A DNA stretch of 64,000 nt. Origin: Streptomyces boluensis. Lineage in GTDB: Bacteria > Actinomycetota > Actinomycetes > Streptomycetales > Streptomycetaceae. Under the pieces are notes generated by a model that had not been told where the DNA came from, did no database searches, and was given only the letters and a program-made list of their open reading frames with translations. Each line of letters opens with the position of its first letter. Position 1 is the first letter of the stretch. A program made the translations under genes and the position numbers. Of this stretch, positions 57,797 to 63,785 are shown in pieces. The stretch lies in assembly GCF_009908195.1 (NCBI RefSeq), contig NZ_JAAAHS010000001.1, positions 1 through 64,000 on the forward strand, in the 5' to 3' direction.

Positions 57797-57870
57797 CGGG
57801 GTGTAGCGCAGCTTGGCAGCGCGCTTCGTTCGGGACGAAGAGGTCGTGGGTTCAAATCCCGCCACCCCGA
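57797..57870 (+). tRNA. tRNA-Pro(CGG)
   Basis: 74 nt. The acceptor stem CGGGGTG pairs with CACCCCG. The anticodon stem CTTCG/CGAAG holds the loop with CGG (reads CCG), the T-loop is GGGTTCAAATCC, and no CCA is encoded. It is the insertion site of the element that follows. The 3' half is intact, as expected when an element restores the gene on integration. Confidence 0.97.
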
Positions 57871-57887
57871 CAGCCGAAACACCAGGT

Positions 57888-57921
57888 CAGGCCCGGTGCT
57901 GAGAGATCAGCACCGGGCCTG
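57888..57921 (+). terminator. Terminator after tRNA-Pro
   Basis: Perfect 15-bp stem CAGGCCCGGTGCTGA with GAGA loop, 18 nt beyond the tRNA. Confidence 0.85.
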
Positions 57922-57942
57922 ATTGGCGTTGCGGGGGCGATC

Positions 57943-57990
57943 TGGGAGCCGTTTGGGAGCCGACTTCGAGATCCGGCTCCCAGGGGAGCC
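57943..57990. promoter_or_regulatory. attL arm-type repeats next to integrase
   Basis: TGGGAGCCG occurs twice directly (57943-57951, 57954-57962) and once inverted (57974-57982), with a degenerate GGGGAGCC after. The cluster sits between tRNA-Pro and the integrase 3' end. Probable integrase or excisionase arm sites; the core crossover site within the tRNA cannot be fixed without the other end. Confidence 0.5.
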
Positions 57991-57991
57991 A

Positions 57992-59509
57992 CTACTGGAG
58001 GGCAGCAACCCTCGCTCGCAGTAGGTCATTCAGCGCGCGCACCGGCGACGTCGGGCACACCGCGAGGCGCGCATCAAGCGCCGCTTCCCACTGCTTGGTC
58101 AGGCCGGCCATGAGGCGCTTGCGCATGCCCGGCGTGACGTGGGCGTAGCGCGCGGAGACCGAGCCGTCGATGTGGCCCATGCGTTCGTCCATGAGGACTT
58201 TCTCGGTGCCGAGGTCCTCCATCATCGTGCGGTGGGTGTGGCGCAGGCCGTGGGGCGTGAGGCCCTTGGCGATCGGGAGCCAGCAGGCATCCGCCCGAGT
58301 GGTGGCCCCTCGGCCTCGGGCCGGGATGCCCGGCCAAGGCTCTGCGAGGACGGGTACCGGGCGGGCCTCCTGTGGTGCCTTCTTCGGGTACCAGCCGGAG
58401 ACCGCCGGGGTGAACAGCCAGGTGGCGAAGCCGTTTCGGCGCCAGTGGGCCGCGTTTTCCGACGTGGTGCCGCCTCGTATGAACCCGAGCTCTTCGATGG
58501 CGATTTGGACGCGTACGCGGGTGTCCTCGCGTACGCGGTCGGGTCGGTTGAGGACGTTGGACACCGTGCCCGTGGAGACTCCGGAGCGGCGTGCGACGTC
58601 GGTGAGCTTCGCGCCCTGGTGGCCGCCGGTGCGCGCCGAACCTTGGCCTCGGAAGACGTACGTCCTGCCGTGGCAGGGGCAGGGGTTCGGCTTCGCACGG
58701 GCGATGTGGTTGATGACGAGGGCAGACAGCCAGTCCGGCGCATCGATGGTGCGGTAGCTGTCGTCCTTGGGCGGGCAGCGGACCAGTTCGCCGGTGTCGA
58801 GTTCGTACAGCTGCCACTCGACGCGGAAGGCGTCGGGGCGTACGAACTCCGTTTCCAGGCCGACGATTTCGCCCCAGCGCTTGCCGGTGTAGCCCTTGAG
58901 GACCGTGGCGATGAACTCATCGTCGCGGCCGGAGAGCAGGGCCGCCCGCTCGGCGGTGAGCAGGATGCCGAGCGCGTCGGTGATGACCTTTTCCGGGCCT
59001 CGGTCGCGGGAGCGGCCTGCGCGCTTGCCGCGTCCGCGTCGCCGGACGGCCGGGTTGGACGTGAGCAGGCCCTCGTCGATCGCGTCCTCGAAGATCAGGT
59101 GGAGCGTGGAGCGCCAGGTCTTGACGCTCGAAGCCGCGTACGCGGCCCGCTCCTTCTTCTCCCACAGCTCGACGTCCGTGCGCAGGATGGCCGCGAGCGC
59201 CTTGTCCTCGAAGTCGGGGAGCAGGTGCTCCTCGATGTGGCGTTTGTAGTTCTGCATCGTCGAGGCGGCCAGATCCTGGGCGGCGTACCAGCGGCTGGCG
59301 TACTCGCCGAAGGTCTCCTGGCCGAGTTTCGGGTCGCGCCACTCGCCGCGCCGGTACTTGTTCTCGGCTTCGCTCGCGGCGCGCTGGGCCTCTCCCTTGT
59401 TGGCGAACTTGATCGGCTTGCCGTCCTCGCCGACGACGGTGAGGTGTTTGCCGGGCGCGATCTTGTAGCGGCCGCGCCAGTAGTTTCCGCGCTTCTCGCC
59501 GAAACCCAT
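57992..59509 (-). CDS. int: Tyrosine recombinase with inserted LacI-type HTH
   Basis: Site-specific integrase, 505 aa. N-terminal arm-binding region (1-65), SAM-like core-binding domain (about 66-150, TFGEYASRWYAAQDLA), catalytic domain from about 180. Catalytic residues: R211 (TGKRWGEIVGL), K248 (PPKDDSYRT), H420-x-x-R423 (TPHGLRHTHRT), H446 (MGHIDGS) and Y455 (ARYAHVT). Between K248 and H420, residues about 301-345 form a full LacI-family HTH plus hinge (KLTDVARRSGVSTGTVSNVL then NRPDRVRE...EELGFIRGG). The frame is unbroken and residues 356-420 (WRRNGFATWLFTPAVSGWYP) resume a normal integrase pattern, so this is an insertion, not a misassembly. Transcribed toward tRNA-Pro. Confidence 0.93.
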   Translation of the reverse strand: MGFGEKRGNYWRGRYKIAPGKHLTVVGEDGKPIKFANKGEAQRAASEAENKYRRGEWRDPKLGQETFGEYASRWYAAQDLAASTMQNYKRHIEEHLLPDFEDKALAAILRTDVELWEKKERAAYAASSVKTWRSTLHLIFEDAIDEGLLTSNPAVRRRGRGKRAGRSRDRGPEKVITDALGILLTAERAALLSGRDDEFIATVLKGYTGKRWGEIVGLETEFVRPDAFRVEWQLYELDTGELVRCPPKDDSYRTIDAPDWLSALVINHIARAKPNPCPCHGRTYVFRGQGSARTGGHQGAKLTDVARRSGVSTGTVSNVLNRPDRVREDTRVRVQIAIEELGFIRGGTTSENAAHWRRNGFATWLFTPAVSGWYPKKAPQEARPVPVLAEPWPGIPARGRGATTRADACWLPIAKGLTPHGLRHTHRTMMEDLGTEKVLMDERMGHIDGSVSARYAHVTPGMRKRLMAGLTKQWEAALDARLAVCPTSPVRALNDLLRARVAALQ

Positions 59510-59536: not shown

Positions 59537-59914
59537 CTAGGCCGCGGTCCCGAACTGGCTCTGCCGGGCTCGGCGTGGCGGCCGGGCGCGGAGACGAGCC
59601 GCGGGAGCGGCGGGTGACGAAGGATGTTGCGGAGCAGGGGACTTGGCGGCCGGAGCCGCTTTCGCTGCCTGTTGCTGCGGCAGGGCAGGGCGGGCCTCGT
59701 TCATGCGGATGATCTCCGCGAGGTGCTCGCCGGTGAAGCGGTACGCGCGGCCGACGCGGGTGAACGGGATGAGCCGACGGCGGGCTCGGTCCTTGACCCA
59801 CCAGGCGGAGCAGCCCAGTACGGCCGCGACTTCCTCGGGGACGTAGAGGCGCGGCGGGCCGACCTCTGCGTGTGCCGTCGGTGCGGAGGCAGGGGTTATC
59901 GCGGGTTGGCGCAA
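59537..59914 (-). CDS. xis: Excisionase-like small HTH protein
   Basis: 125 aa. Central MerR/excisionase-type winged HTH: PRLYVPEEVAAVLGCSAWWV, KDRARRRLIPFTRVGRAYRF, TGEHLAEIIR. The rest is an Ala/Pro/Arg-rich disordered tail of about 50 residues. Located 27 bp upstream of int on the same strand, the usual place for the directionality factor of such elements. Confidence 0.8.
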   Translation of the reverse strand: MRQPAITPASAPTAHAEVGPPRLYVPEEVAAVLGCSAWWVKDRARRRLIPFTRVGRAYRFTGEHLAEIIRMNEARPALPQQQAAKAAPAAKSPAPQHPSSPAAPAARLRARPPRRARQSQFGTAA

Positions 59915-60037: not shown

Positions 60038-60550
60038 CTATGCCTCGTCGGCGGATTGGGTGTCGTCGCGACCAGGCTGAGGACCGTGCATCTTCAGCAT
60101 GGTCTTGCTGGCCTCTTCCGCCATGGCGCTCTGGACCATGAGGTCGGCTTCCTCGCGGATGTCGGGGTGCTCGGCGAGGTAGGTGTCGAGCGCGTCGCGC
60201 GCCTTCGTGAAGGCCATGTTGGCTCTCTGGGTCGCGCGGAATGCATCCACGACCTCGTCGATGAGTTCCATGGCGCGGGCCTTCGCCGCCAGCTGCGGTG
60301 GCCCGACGAGATTGCGCAGGTCGATGCCTAGGACCTCGGCGAAGCCGATGGCATCGTCGAGGTTGATGCGGCGCTTCCCGTTTTCGATCCGCCAGACCGC
60401 GGACGGGTTCATCTCGAAGCCGGCTTCGTTGAGCCGGTCGGACAGGGCGTTGGTGCTCCAGCCGCGCGCCTCGCGCTCCACCCTGATGCGGGTCGCGACG
60501 TTCGCCTCGCCGCTGAGCAGGACGCCCTCGGACGGTTCTTCCTCCGCCAC
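60038..60550 (-). CDS. XRE-family repressor of the element
   Basis: 170 aa from GTG 60550, chosen for AAGGAGG 5 nt upstream over the ATG-like frame start at 60580. HTH at about 20-75: ATRIRVEREARGWSTNALSDRL, NPSAVWRIENGKRRINLDDAIGFAE. The C-terminal helical part (ELIDEVVDAFRATQRANMAF) may be for oligomerisation. Divergent from the plus-strand transfer/replication genes across a 285-bp region with three operator-like repeats. Likely maintains quiescence and autoregulates. Confidence 0.85.
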   Translation of the reverse strand: MAEEEPSEGVLLSGEANVATRIRVEREARGWSTNALSDRLNEAGFEMNPSAVWRIENGKRRINLDDAIGFAEVLGIDLRNLVGPPQLAAKARAMELIDEVVDAFRATQRANMAFTKARDALDTYLAEHPDIREEADLMVQSAMAEEASKTMLKMHGPQPGRDDTQSADEA

Positions 60551-60578
60551 CGGCACCTCCTTCCGTTCGTAGCGATGC

Positions 60579-60650
60579 ACTGCGGTTTGCAGTACAGCCT
60601 AAACAGTAGCATTGATACTGCGAGATGCAGAATGCTTCTGCGATCTGCAA
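60579..60650. promoter_or_regulatory. Triple operator region CTGC-N5-GCAG
   Basis: O1 ACTGCGGTTTGCAGT (60579-60593), O2 CTGCGAGATGCAG (60618-60630) and O3 CTGCGATCTGCAA (60638-60650). All are dyads with a 5-nt spacer. O2 and O3 are 20 bp apart and O1 is 38 bp from O2, close to whole helical turns. A minus-strand -10 TAGGCT (60601-60596) abuts O1. The layout resembles a phage repressor switch. Confidence 0.7.
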
Positions 60651-60723
60651 TTCATGTGGCATAGTGGTGGCATCCCACCCCACCGACCTCAGGAGTCGGC
60701 ACGCCCGCACGTCACATGAAAGA

Positions 60724-60746
60724 AGCCCCCGGCGATGCCGGGGGCT
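60724..60746 (+). terminator. Leader hairpin/attenuator before the DUF3631 gene
   Basis: AGCCCCCGGC-GAT-GCCGGGGGCT, a perfect 10-bp stem about 90 nt before the ribosome site of the DUF3631 gene. Terminator-like but without a T-run; it could limit leaky transcription of the transfer operon. Confidence 0.55.
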
Positions 60747-60835
60747 CAAGCGCAAACCTCTCAACCGCCATCCCTAGCGATCAACCTGCGGAGACCGGGA
60801 TTGCCGTCCCATATGGCCCGCAAGCAGAGGAGCTG

Positions 60836-62062
60836 ATGCCCAGTATGGCCGATGTCCAGCCGAATACGCCATCCCTTACCGATGCCTCAGACGAGGCCGG
60901 CCATGCCAGTGCGGTCCCGGCAGAGCCCCTGACCGAGGGGGCGGAGATCTTGGATGACCTGCGGGCGCAGCTCAAGCGGTACGTGGCGATGCCCAGCGAA
61001 GAGGCGCTCACTGCGGTGGCCTTGTGGGTCGCCGCCACCCATCTGCAGCCCGCGTGGCAGCACGCGCCGCGCCTGGCGATCGTGGCTCCGGAGAAACGGT
61101 GCGGTAAGTCCAGGCTCCTGGACATGGTGACCGAGACGGTGCACAACCGCCTGATCACGGTCAATGCCAGCGCGGCGGCGATCTTCCGGTCGATCGACGG
61201 GGACGACCCGCCCACGCTCCTGGTCGACGAGGCCGACACCCTCTTCAGCAGCCCCAGGGCGGCGGAGAAGAACGAGGAGGTCCGCGGCCTCATCAACGCC
61301 GGGCACCAGCGCGGCCGACCGACACTTCGGGTGTCCGGGCCGGAGCACCAGGTGCATGAGTTCCCCACCTTCGCCATGGCCGCCCTCGCCGGGATCGGCA
61401 ACCTGCCCGACACGATCCAGGACCGGGCGGTGGTCATCCGGATGCGCCGTCGCGCGGCGGGCGAGAAGGTGGCGTCCTTCCGCACCGGCCGGGACACCCC
61501 CGCCCTGAACGCGATCCGCGACCGCCTCCACACCTGGCTCCAGCCGCTGTTCGCGCAGGCCATGGAGACGGAGCCACCGATGCCGGTCGAGGACCGCGCG
61601 GCAGACACCTGGGAACCCCTGGTCATCATCGCCGACCTCGCCGGGGGCGACTGGCCGATGCTGGCCCGTACCGCCTGCCGCACCATGACCGACTACGAGG
61701 CCGGTCAGGACGAGGAGGGCGGCCTGCGCACCCGCCTCCTGGTCGGCATCCGCCGCGCCTTCGCCGCCGTCGGCGACCCGGCCATGCTGGGCACGAAGCA
61801 CCTCCTTGAGTCCCTCAACGCGGACAAGGAAGCACCGTGGGCGGAGTACGGCGCCAACGGCCTGACCCCGCGCGGCCTGCAGCTGCTCCTGAAGCCGTAC
61901 GGGATCGGCTCGGCCAACCGCCGCTTCCCCGACGGCACTCAGGCCAAGGGCTTCGCGCGCAACCAATTCCTCGACACGTGGGCGCGCTACTGCCCCGAGC
62001 CGAAGCCGGCTGACGGGCCCGCCCCACCTGCGGACGTGCCGCTGCCCGGCACCGCAGCCTGA
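60836..62062 (+). CDS. DUF3631 P-loop ATPase, stand-alone
   Basis: 408 aa. Walker A-like VAPEKRCGKSRLLDM, Walker B TLLVDEADTLF, then FPTFAMAALAGIGNLPDTI, a sensor-like region, and RMRRRAAGEKV. C-terminal DUF3631 (DEEGGLRTRLLVGIRRAF; GLTPRGLQLLLKPYGI). In many elements DUF3631 is fused to a primase-polymerase or is the replication ATPase; here no primase is attached. ATG 60836 is preceded by AGAGGAG; the longer frame to 60716 would run through the leader hairpin. Presumed replication or maintenance role. Confidence 0.85.
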   Translation: MPSMADVQPNTPSLTDASDEAGHASAVPAEPLTEGAEILDDLRAQLKRYVAMPSEEALTAVALWVAATHLQPAWQHAPRLAIVAPEKRCGKSRLLDMVTETVHNRLITVNASAAAIFRSIDGDDPPTLLVDEADTLFSSPRAAEKNEEVRGLINAGHQRGRPTLRVSGPEHQVHEFPTFAMAALAGIGNLPDTIQDRAVVIRMRRRAAGEKVASFRTGRDTPALNAIRDRLHTWLQPLFAQAMETEPPMPVEDRAADTWEPLVIIADLAGGDWPMLARTACRTMTDYEAGQDEEGGLRTRLLVGIRRAFAAVGDPAMLGTKHLLESLNADKEAPWAEYGANGLTPRGLQLLLKPYGIGSANRRFPDGTQAKGFARNQFLDTWARYCPEPKPADGPAPPADVPLPGTAA

Positions 62063-62195: not shown

Positions 62196-62284
62196 CCCAG
62201 CACCTCACGGCGGCCACGCCCTGCCCTCCCTTGCGCCGAGGCCGCCCCCAAGCCCACCTGGAGTACCCCCACTTGTTCGCCCGT

Positions 62285-63013
62285 ATGAACGCCTGGAGCG
62301 CCGCCGTCCGTGGCACCGGTGCGATCCGCGCCGGAATCGCCCTGCTCGCCGCGTTCGCCTTCGCCCTCTCCTACGACGCCCTGCGTCAGATGGCCGTCGC
62401 CATCCACATCCGCGGACTCCTCACCTACGCCTTCCCGCTCGTCATCGACGGGTTCATCGCCATCGGCGTCGGCGCGCTGCTCATGCTCCGCACCGCCCCG
62501 ACACGCTCCCGCGTCTACGTGTGGCTACTCGTCGGCGCAGCCACCCTGACCAGCATCTGGGCCAACGCCCTGCATGCGGTCCGCCTCAACCAGCAAGCCC
62601 GCAACGGCGTTGGCCTGCGGCTCGACGACGTCACCGTCGGCGGCCTGTCCGCCATCGCCCCGCTCGCCCTGGCCGGAGCCGTACACCTCTACATCGTCGT
62701 ACGCCGTCAGGACGTGGCTGATGTGGCTCCGGGTTCCGCCGCAGTGGCTGATGCACCGCAAGGGGCCGGTACGTCGGAAGAGCCCGTGCCCGATGAGGTC
62801 TCCGCCGAGAGGCTCGCCATCGCGCGCACGGCACCGCTCGGACGACAGGGCCGCGCCTCCCGCCGCCACATCGAAGCCACCTTCCGAGAACGCGACCTCA
62901 CCATCGGCCGCAAGGAAGCGGACCTGCTTAAGGACCTCGTCCAGGCCGAACTCGACGCAGCAGCCACCGCGCAGCGGCCAGAGCTCATCGCGACCGGCGC
63001 CGACGCCGCCTGA
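62285..63013 (+). CDS. DUF2637 membrane protein
   Basis: 242 aa. Four predicted membrane helices in the first ~140 residues (AGIALLAAFAFALSYDALRQ; LTYAFPLVIDGFIAIGVGALLML; YVWLLVGAATLTSIWANALH; GLSAIAPLALAGAVHLYIVV), the DUF2637 signature. A soluble helical domain (RHIEATFRERDLTIGRKEADL, an HTH-like C-terminus) follows. Found in actinobacterial integrative elements and plasmids, possibly linked to spread or transfer. The start is uncertain: ATG 62285, or TTG 62273 with GGAG upstream. Confidence 0.8.
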   Translation: MNAWSAAVRGTGAIRAGIALLAAFAFALSYDALRQMAVAIHIRGLLTYAFPLVIDGFIAIGVGALLMLRTAPTRSRVYVWLLVGAATLTSIWANALHAVRLNQQARNGVGLRLDDVTVGGLSAIAPLALAGAVHLYIVVRRQDVADVAPGSAAVADAPQGAGTSEEPVPDEVSAERLAIARTAPLGRQGRASRRHIEATFRERDLTIGRKEADLLKDLVQAELDAAATAQRPELIATGADAA

Positions 63014-63122: not shown

Positions 63123-63785
63123 ATGCACGACGAATCCCGCCAACCCCCCACCCCCAAGCAGCAGATGACCACCGACCTCACGCACGAAAACAGCGGAGCA
63201 AGGTATCCCGTTGGACCGTCCAAGGGCCGGTTCCCCGGGGCAGCCTCCGCCCCGGGGGTGGCGGAGGCACGCGGGCGCCAGGGGGCACCCACGTCGGAGA
63301 AGCCCACCGTCGACACCGAGTTGCCGCTGCCGCGTGCCGCCGACGAAGCCGCCTTCCACCGCGTCGCCCGCCGCCGCACCCGCGACTCCGTCCAGCGCAA
63401 GCAGCGCGTCGACGCCCGCTACAGCACCACCGAGAAGACCAAGATCCTCTCCAAGGCCCGCTCCCTGAACATCTCCGGCGCCCACCTCGTGGCCACCGCC
63501 GTCATGGCCTACATCGACGGCGACCTCGCCCTGCCCGGCCAGCGCACCGAACTCGACGACTACATCGACGAACTCAACGCGCTACGCGAGCAGGTCGCCC
63601 GCGTCGGCCGCAACGTCAACCAGATCGCCAAGAAGCTCAACTCCGACGGCACCGCACACCCCACGGACATCGCCCTGCTCGCCCTGGCCGACCGCACCCT
63701 GGAGCACACCACCTCCGCCGTCCAGACCATCGCCGCAGCCGCGAACCAGGCCGTATCCACCGCCAGGAAGGCGACGGCCCGGTGA
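63123..63785 (+). CDS. mobC: MobC-type relaxosome accessory protein
   Basis: 220 aa. N-terminal ~85 residues look disordered. A ribbon-helix-helix-like stretch follows (DARYSTTEKTKILSKARSLN, ISGAHLVATAVMAYIDGD). The MobC motif REQVARVGRNVNQIAKKLNS is followed by two coiled helices. MobC helps melt oriT and load the relaxase. GGAG ribosome site; its stop overlaps the relaxase GTG start (GTGA). Confidence 0.88.
   Translation: MHDESRQPPTPKQQMTTDLTHENSGARYPVGPSKGRFPGAASAPGVAEARGRQGAPTSEKPTVDTELPLPRAADEAAFHRVARRRTRDSVQRKQRVDARYSTTEKTKILSKARSLNISGAHLVATAVMAYIDGDLALPGQRTELDDYIDELNALREQVARVGRNVNQIAKKLNSDGTAHPTDIALLALADRTLEHTTSAVQTIAAAANQAVSTARKATAR

Follow-up and report, generated by a model that had tools for sequence, protein, structure and literature searches.

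A LacI-type helix-turn-helix headpiece inserted in the catalytic domain of a Streptomyces tyrosine integrase

The window, a 64,000-nucleotide stretch of DNA from Streptomyces boluensis, holds an integrase gene that raises a simple question: what does the DNA-binding headpiece of a transcription factor do inside the catalytic domain of a tyrosine recombinase? The gene (57992..59509, minus strand) was recognized from its ORF, Pfam matches, a structure model, and fold comparison. It is the sole long ORF at these coordinates and encodes 505 aa. Its frame is unbroken, as the sequence-only reading had stated while leaving the strand unnamed. The recombinase parts of the model match Tn1549 Int (Z 20.0), lambda Int (Z 16.3), and Cre (Z about 13), and the protein shares with the tRNA-targeting integrases of the lambda Int/Tn1549 Int fold its arm-binding, core-binding, and catalytic domains and the RKHRHY residues. 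The N-terminal arm-binding domain (aa 1-60, 59330..59509, minus strand) is modeled with three strands and one helix and is further defined by its covariation with the arm-site allele. The core-binding, SAM-like integrase domain (aa 64-160, 59030..59320, minus strand) is found by Pfam (PF14659/PF22022) and by fold matches, and a weak Phage_integrase match covers the C-terminal motifs. The set of catalytic residues, previously noted as complete, is indeed present on the minus strand with R211 (Arg I, 58877..58879), K248 (β-hairpin Lys, 58766..58768), the HxxR motif H420-R423 (58241..58252), H446 at the His/Trp position (58172..58174), and the nucleophile Y455 (58145..58147). R211, K248, H420, R423, H446, and Y455 are unvarying in alignments of 13 diverse relatives and of 40 relatives. 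Judged by its sequence, this tRNA-targeting tyrosine integrase appears to be intact. Two cysteines ahead of the YVF strand, C277 and C279 in CPCH (within the stretch from 58766-58768 to 58250), likewise do not vary in any aligned relative, a hint that they have a metal or structural role.

The feature that is foreign to the lambda Int/Tn1549 Int fold is a LacI headpiece between K248 and H420 (aa 301-345, 58475..58609, minus strand), assigned from PF00356, the model helices, and superposition on PurR. The PF00356 match at aa 302-344 lies over the curated cut-off (E=1.8e-14), which rules out a chance HTH match and upholds the central claim made earlier for this gene. In an AlphaFold2 model built with 40 relatives (mean pLDDT 86, pTM 0.72), the expected three-helix HTH is seen (helices 302-309, 313-321, and 328-341; block mean pLDDT 79-88), and the HTH alone superposes on that of PurR with 1.3 Å over 45 aa. 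The recognition helix (aa 313-321, TGTVSNVLN, 58547..58573, minus strand) is nearly invariant in the alignment. Two tethers connect the block to the recombinase, tether 1 at aa 288-300 (58610..58648, minus strand; pLDDT under 50 at 291-298) and tether 2 at aa 346-354 (58448..58474, minus strand; pLDDT under 50 at 347-350), and the HTH is predicted to be a separate folding unit on these two floppy linkers. Tether 2 occupies the place of the LacI hinge helix, where no helix is predicted.

The module had been described as a complete LacI domain with a hinge-like helix. The HTH is there, but the hinge is not: the Pfam match stops at 344, the LacI hinge motif is missing from the sequence (EELGFIRGGTTSENAAHWRR), and the model has a low-confidence tether at 347-350 and no helix at 345-357, the next helix (358-371) being part of the recombinase fold. 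Because both hinge motif and hinge helix are absent, the module is a LacI HTH headpiece and not a complete LacI DNA-binding domain. The periplasmic-binding-protein-like core for ligand binding and dimerization is absent as well, the remainder of the protein being recombinase in both the Pfam search and the model. Compared with VSVGTVSNVINRP-type LacI regulators, the HTH family is therefore the same (the nearest regulators have VSVGTVSN helices), whereas the hinge helix and the ligand-binding or dimerization core are missing and the host protein is a recombinase. Four residues of the module, Ser312, Thr315, Ser317, and Asn321, which are the counterparts of DNA-contact residues of LacI, are nearly invariant in the Streptomyces rows. 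Directly after the recognition helix, the window integrase has Arg322 (58544-58546) where 93% of its Streptomyces relatives have His.

When a profile of LacI-less relatives is aligned with the solved integrase 3nkh, the insertion point falls in the loop that leads from the "FVF" strand to the next helix. This helix presumably corresponds to helix J in Cre numbering, and in Cre, the corresponding loop and helix contact DNA. By homology, the module may thus be placed beside the DNA. The idea of a second DNA-binding module in an exposed loop holds insofar as the loop is exposed, the recombinase otherwise intact, and the module selected; counted along the protein, however, it is the third, after the arm-binding and core-binding domains. 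Among solved chains matched by sequence, none covers LacI and recombinase parts together. The integron integrase IntI4 (2a3v) has the same fold (Z 15.7). In integron integrases, the extra element inside the catalytic domain is a short helix for folded attC DNA, whereas the insert described here is an HTH. A functional study of LacI-containing integrases was not found in the open-access literature searched. Fold and HTH are both known, and the architecture is widespread.

The integrase gene lies at one end of an integrated element. Its target is tRNA-Pro (CGG) (57797..57871, plus strand), in whose anticodon loop a 46-bp att core repeat begins (57829..57874, plus strand). The repeat recurs outside the window at positions 89683-89728 of the contig, which gives an element of about 31.9 kb, and the direct repeats imply past integration at tRNA-Pro(CGG). 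Upstream of int follow an excisionase-like HTH_17 protein, the candidate RDF (59537..59914, minus strand, directly adjacent), and an XRE-type regulator (60038..60580, minus strand), and on the plus strand a DUF3631 protein (60716..62062), a DUF2637 protein (62231..63013), and a MobC-like mobilization protein (63123..63785, a weak match just under the Pfam cut-off). A MobA/VirD2-type relaxase gene comes next (63782-65476, mostly outside the window). Relaxase and MobC-like protein together suggest a mobilizable element; in the annotated part of the element, they were found instead of the single FtsK-like translocator (TraB) for double-stranded transfer that is a feature of AICEs.

The att region resembles that of the lambda Int/Tn1549 Int-fold integrases in having the core in a tRNA gene, paired direct-repeat arm sites on both arms, and an adjacent excisionase-like gene. 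On the int side, two direct repeats CGGCTCCCA with an 11-bp period form the arm-type sites (57942..57963, minus strand; GGGAGCC on the plus strand at 57944 and 57955), and an inverted pair GGCTCCC/GGGAGCC beside the int stop (57975..57990) may provide further arm sites. A hairpin between arm sites and core (57888..57921, minus strand), read directly from the sequence and kept in position in other elements, is the probable int terminator. The motif CTGACCTG adjoins the core (57883..57890, minus strand) and is common to LacI-plus and LacI-minus elements. The int-side motif TGACCTGG (57883-57890) and a far-side CCAGGTCA/CCTGGTCA-like motif (contig position about 89629-89640) flank the core in both kinds alike, so that the elements have a common layout of arms, hairpin, TGACCTGG, core, CCAGGTCA-like motif, and arms. 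For five loci (L043, L044, L045, L047, and L040), far-end att copies were not found within the sequence stretches examined.

The cargo of the element, outside the window, contains type III Wadjet genes (contig 81263-89231, corresponding to L070 6263-14231) with matches to JetA3 (8e-203), JetC3 (E=0), and JetD3 (7e-130). A 271-aa protein without a PADLOC match occupies the JetB place between JetA3 and JetC3. Adjoining the attR copy (contig 89683, L070 14683-14728) lies an apparent second element end with TTCTCCC-type arm sites at 89795-89815, and a further tRNA-like repeat is found at contig position 94865 (L070 19865 onward). Probably, a single tRNA gene holds tandem elements or remnants here.

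The sequence-only reading had mentioned similar annotated integrases in other Streptomyces genomes, and the architecture is in fact very common. With a threshold of E below 1e-40, homologs, some fragmentary, occur in 103 of 393 sampled genomes of the genus. A scan of named genomes gave 80 loci (79 in named Streptomyces and one in Streptantibioticus), and further homologs lie on viral contigs and on two plasmids, one of them phage-like (RecT, lambda exonuclease) and the other named phiM2. A phylum-wide search with alignment found the window only, probably owing to sparse sampling. In two loci (L067 and L068; NZ_CP134608.1 and NZ_CP036456.1), RefSeq calls the integrase a "LacI family DNA-binding transcriptional regulator." The name misleads, and because of it, surveys of integrases and of regulators would both miscount such proteins.

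The LacI module is present in every full-length Streptomyces member read. In the actinobacterial family f19, by contrast, members with 55-59% identity over the first 290 residues are cleanly without the module, the alignment running straight from the VF strand into the (H)WRR helix. In a tree calculated without the insert columns, three state changes are required, at least two of them by well-supported branches. The LacI carriers as a single clade are rejected (AU p=0.0014; p=0.046 without the arm domain in a quick tree). Rejection of a single clade points to repeated loss and/or gain of the module, always at the same place. A tree of the HTH only (45 aa) carries too small a signal to separate one origin from several. 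In three LacI-less relatives (L048, L056, and L057), another insert of about 60 aa, for which no Pfam match was found, separates the CxC motif from the VF strand, close to the loop that elsewhere holds the LacI module. This loop in the catalytic domain is possibly a hotspot for insertions, and recombinases may tolerate added DNA-binding modules there.

Across 90 gap-free Streptomyces rows, the HTH has a dN/dS of 0.19 and its recognition helix region one of 0.12; the arm domain stands at 0.40 and the C-terminal catalytic part at 0.08. STGTVSNVLN is nearly unvarying. Judged from the low dN/dS and the nearly invariant recognition helix, the module is kept by purifying selection and in this selective sense functional. 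If so, it represents a natural case of a transcription-factor HTH grafted into a recombinase catalytic domain and kept by selection in many elements.

What it is kept for is answered most readily, though tentatively and at less than an even chance, by an accessory role in which the module, as a monomer, touches DNA beside the core site; this role would be optional, and the module lost and/or regained repeatedly. The LacI headpiece, one per catalytic protomer, would act as a monomeric clamp instead of a classical dimeric operator-binding repressor. It would grip one more short piece of DNA immediately flanking the core site, on the tRNA side of attB/attP, and would thereby stabilize the intasome or bias one direction of the reaction. 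Without hinge helix and dimerization core and on flexible tethers, the module is unlikely to bind a palindromic operator by the usual LacI mechanism. The clamp is also favored by the match and fold of the HTH, by the purifying selection on it, by the insertion point, which precedes the helix after the VF strand in the 3nkh alignment, and by the recognition helix, which is constant while arm alleles switch and upstream DNA is unrelated. On either att arm, no module-specific DNA site was seen in seven LacI-plus and two LacI-minus elements; the int-xis coding DNA, also common to the elements, is a possible target.

The contribution of such a clamp would be modest or conditional, because LacI-less relatives manage with the same tRNA and similar arms. 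L055, which has no LacI module, lies at the same tRNA-Pro(CGG) and has CTCCC-type arms, so the module is dispensable for the use of this tRNA. LacI-plus members occupy tRNA-Pro(CGG), Pro(GGG), Ala, and Ile, whereas Val, Pro(CGG), and Ala are the sites of LacI-minus members, a distribution that disfavors a tRNA-choosing role. Close LacI-less relatives at the same tRNA are ready-made natural controls and make the effect of the extra module on the integrase directly testable.

In a narrower and improbable proposal, the module is a recognition cassette that can be transferred between proteins, and its docking place would be the T-arm of the tRNA gene, which lies about 14 bp outside the crossover stem. 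Of all half-site-like sequences, TGAACC in the T-arm, which differs from TGAATC by one mismatch, alone keeps a fixed position in 26 of 26 att regions; this is no more than compatible with docking, because the T-arm is conserved for its own reasons. If true, the recombinase would read two separate parts of its target gene, and the constancy of the recognition helix despite changing arms and promoters would be explained.

Rather unlikely, yet the likeliest alternative to the clamp, is a directionality or regulatory role through protein-protein contacts, with the HTH touching the excisionase or neighboring protomers or serving as a structural wedge without specific DNA binding. HTH domains can be used for protein contacts, and the other insert of about 60 aa in L048, L056, and L057 indicates that the loop tolerates diverse modules. 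The recognition helix, however, is the most conserved stretch of the module and keeps its DNA-contact-type residues.

A further alternative, that the module is an autoregulator, had been raised by the sequence-only reading. Here, the HTH would bind an operator at the xis-int/regulator promoter or elsewhere in the element and repress or activate transcription. LacI headpieces are normally repressors, and an AT-richer divergent region with inverted repeats is conserved upstream of the XRE regulator gene. The KplE1 integrase IntS sets a precedent by repressing its own gene, the int promoter overlapping attL (PMC2951348). Both are integrases of tRNA-associated elements, but the window int points to att, so that att binding would miss its promoter, and the abstract on KplE1 describes no extra HTH (PMC2951348). 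When 94 Streptomyces elements are sorted by the DNA upstream of xis, they fall into two non-homologous groups of 63 and 28 and three singletons; both groups have an identical recognition helix and share the tRNA/core region and the int-xis genes. Shared 7- or 8-mers upstream of xis did not rise above shuffles, in a weak test with only seven representatives, and 7-mers enriched near int were merely GC-rich background. The closest Streptomyces LacI regulators have VSVGTVSN recognition helices, and a TGAATCGATTCA palindrome lies upstream of two among about 30 of their loci. Operators of this type match five times in the window versus 7.9 expected, with none in the element part; with two mismatches allowed, TGAATCGATTCA still does not occur in the element, and four three-mismatch matches occur in the rest of the element. 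The inverted repeats are more simply explained as the XRE regulator's own, and the module has neither hinge nor dimerization core. On this sequence evidence, in which the operator search covered the TGAATCGATTCA type, a promoter-binding autoregulator of int is unlikely and disfavored.

It is very improbable that the module is a neutral hitch-hiker from an accidental, functionless insertion: close relatives without it sit in presumably working elements, but its dN/dS of 0.19 over 90 rows, the nearly invariant recognition helix, and its presence in every full-length Streptomyces member read speak against this.

The 11-bp-period direct-repeat pairs occur on both att arms and also in LacI-less relatives, which makes them independent of the module. 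In Streptomyces elements, they come in two types, GGCTCCC and TTCTCCC, and among 18 and 10 elements, 13 integrase positions split the types perfectly; each of these lies within aa 1-60, and the 67-aa insert region contributes none. When the arm domain is left out of the tree, the allele shows three changes, and a single clade of TTC elements is rejected (p=0.022). Because arm domain and arm sites switch together, the arm sites are evidently read by the N-terminal domain (aa 1-60) and not by the LacI module. The weakest reading, binding of these arm-type att sites by the module, could appeal to TGGGAGC, which looks superficially like LacI-family half-sites, but is refuted as far as sequence can refute it by sites that exist without the module and covary only with the N-terminal 60 residues. 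The joint switching amounts to a clean genetic demonstration of the arm-reading domain. One element (L116) was set aside as an exception in this comparison; it combines a GGC-type N terminus with TTC-type tRNA-proximal arms 2,968 bp from int, arms that possibly belong to a neighboring element.
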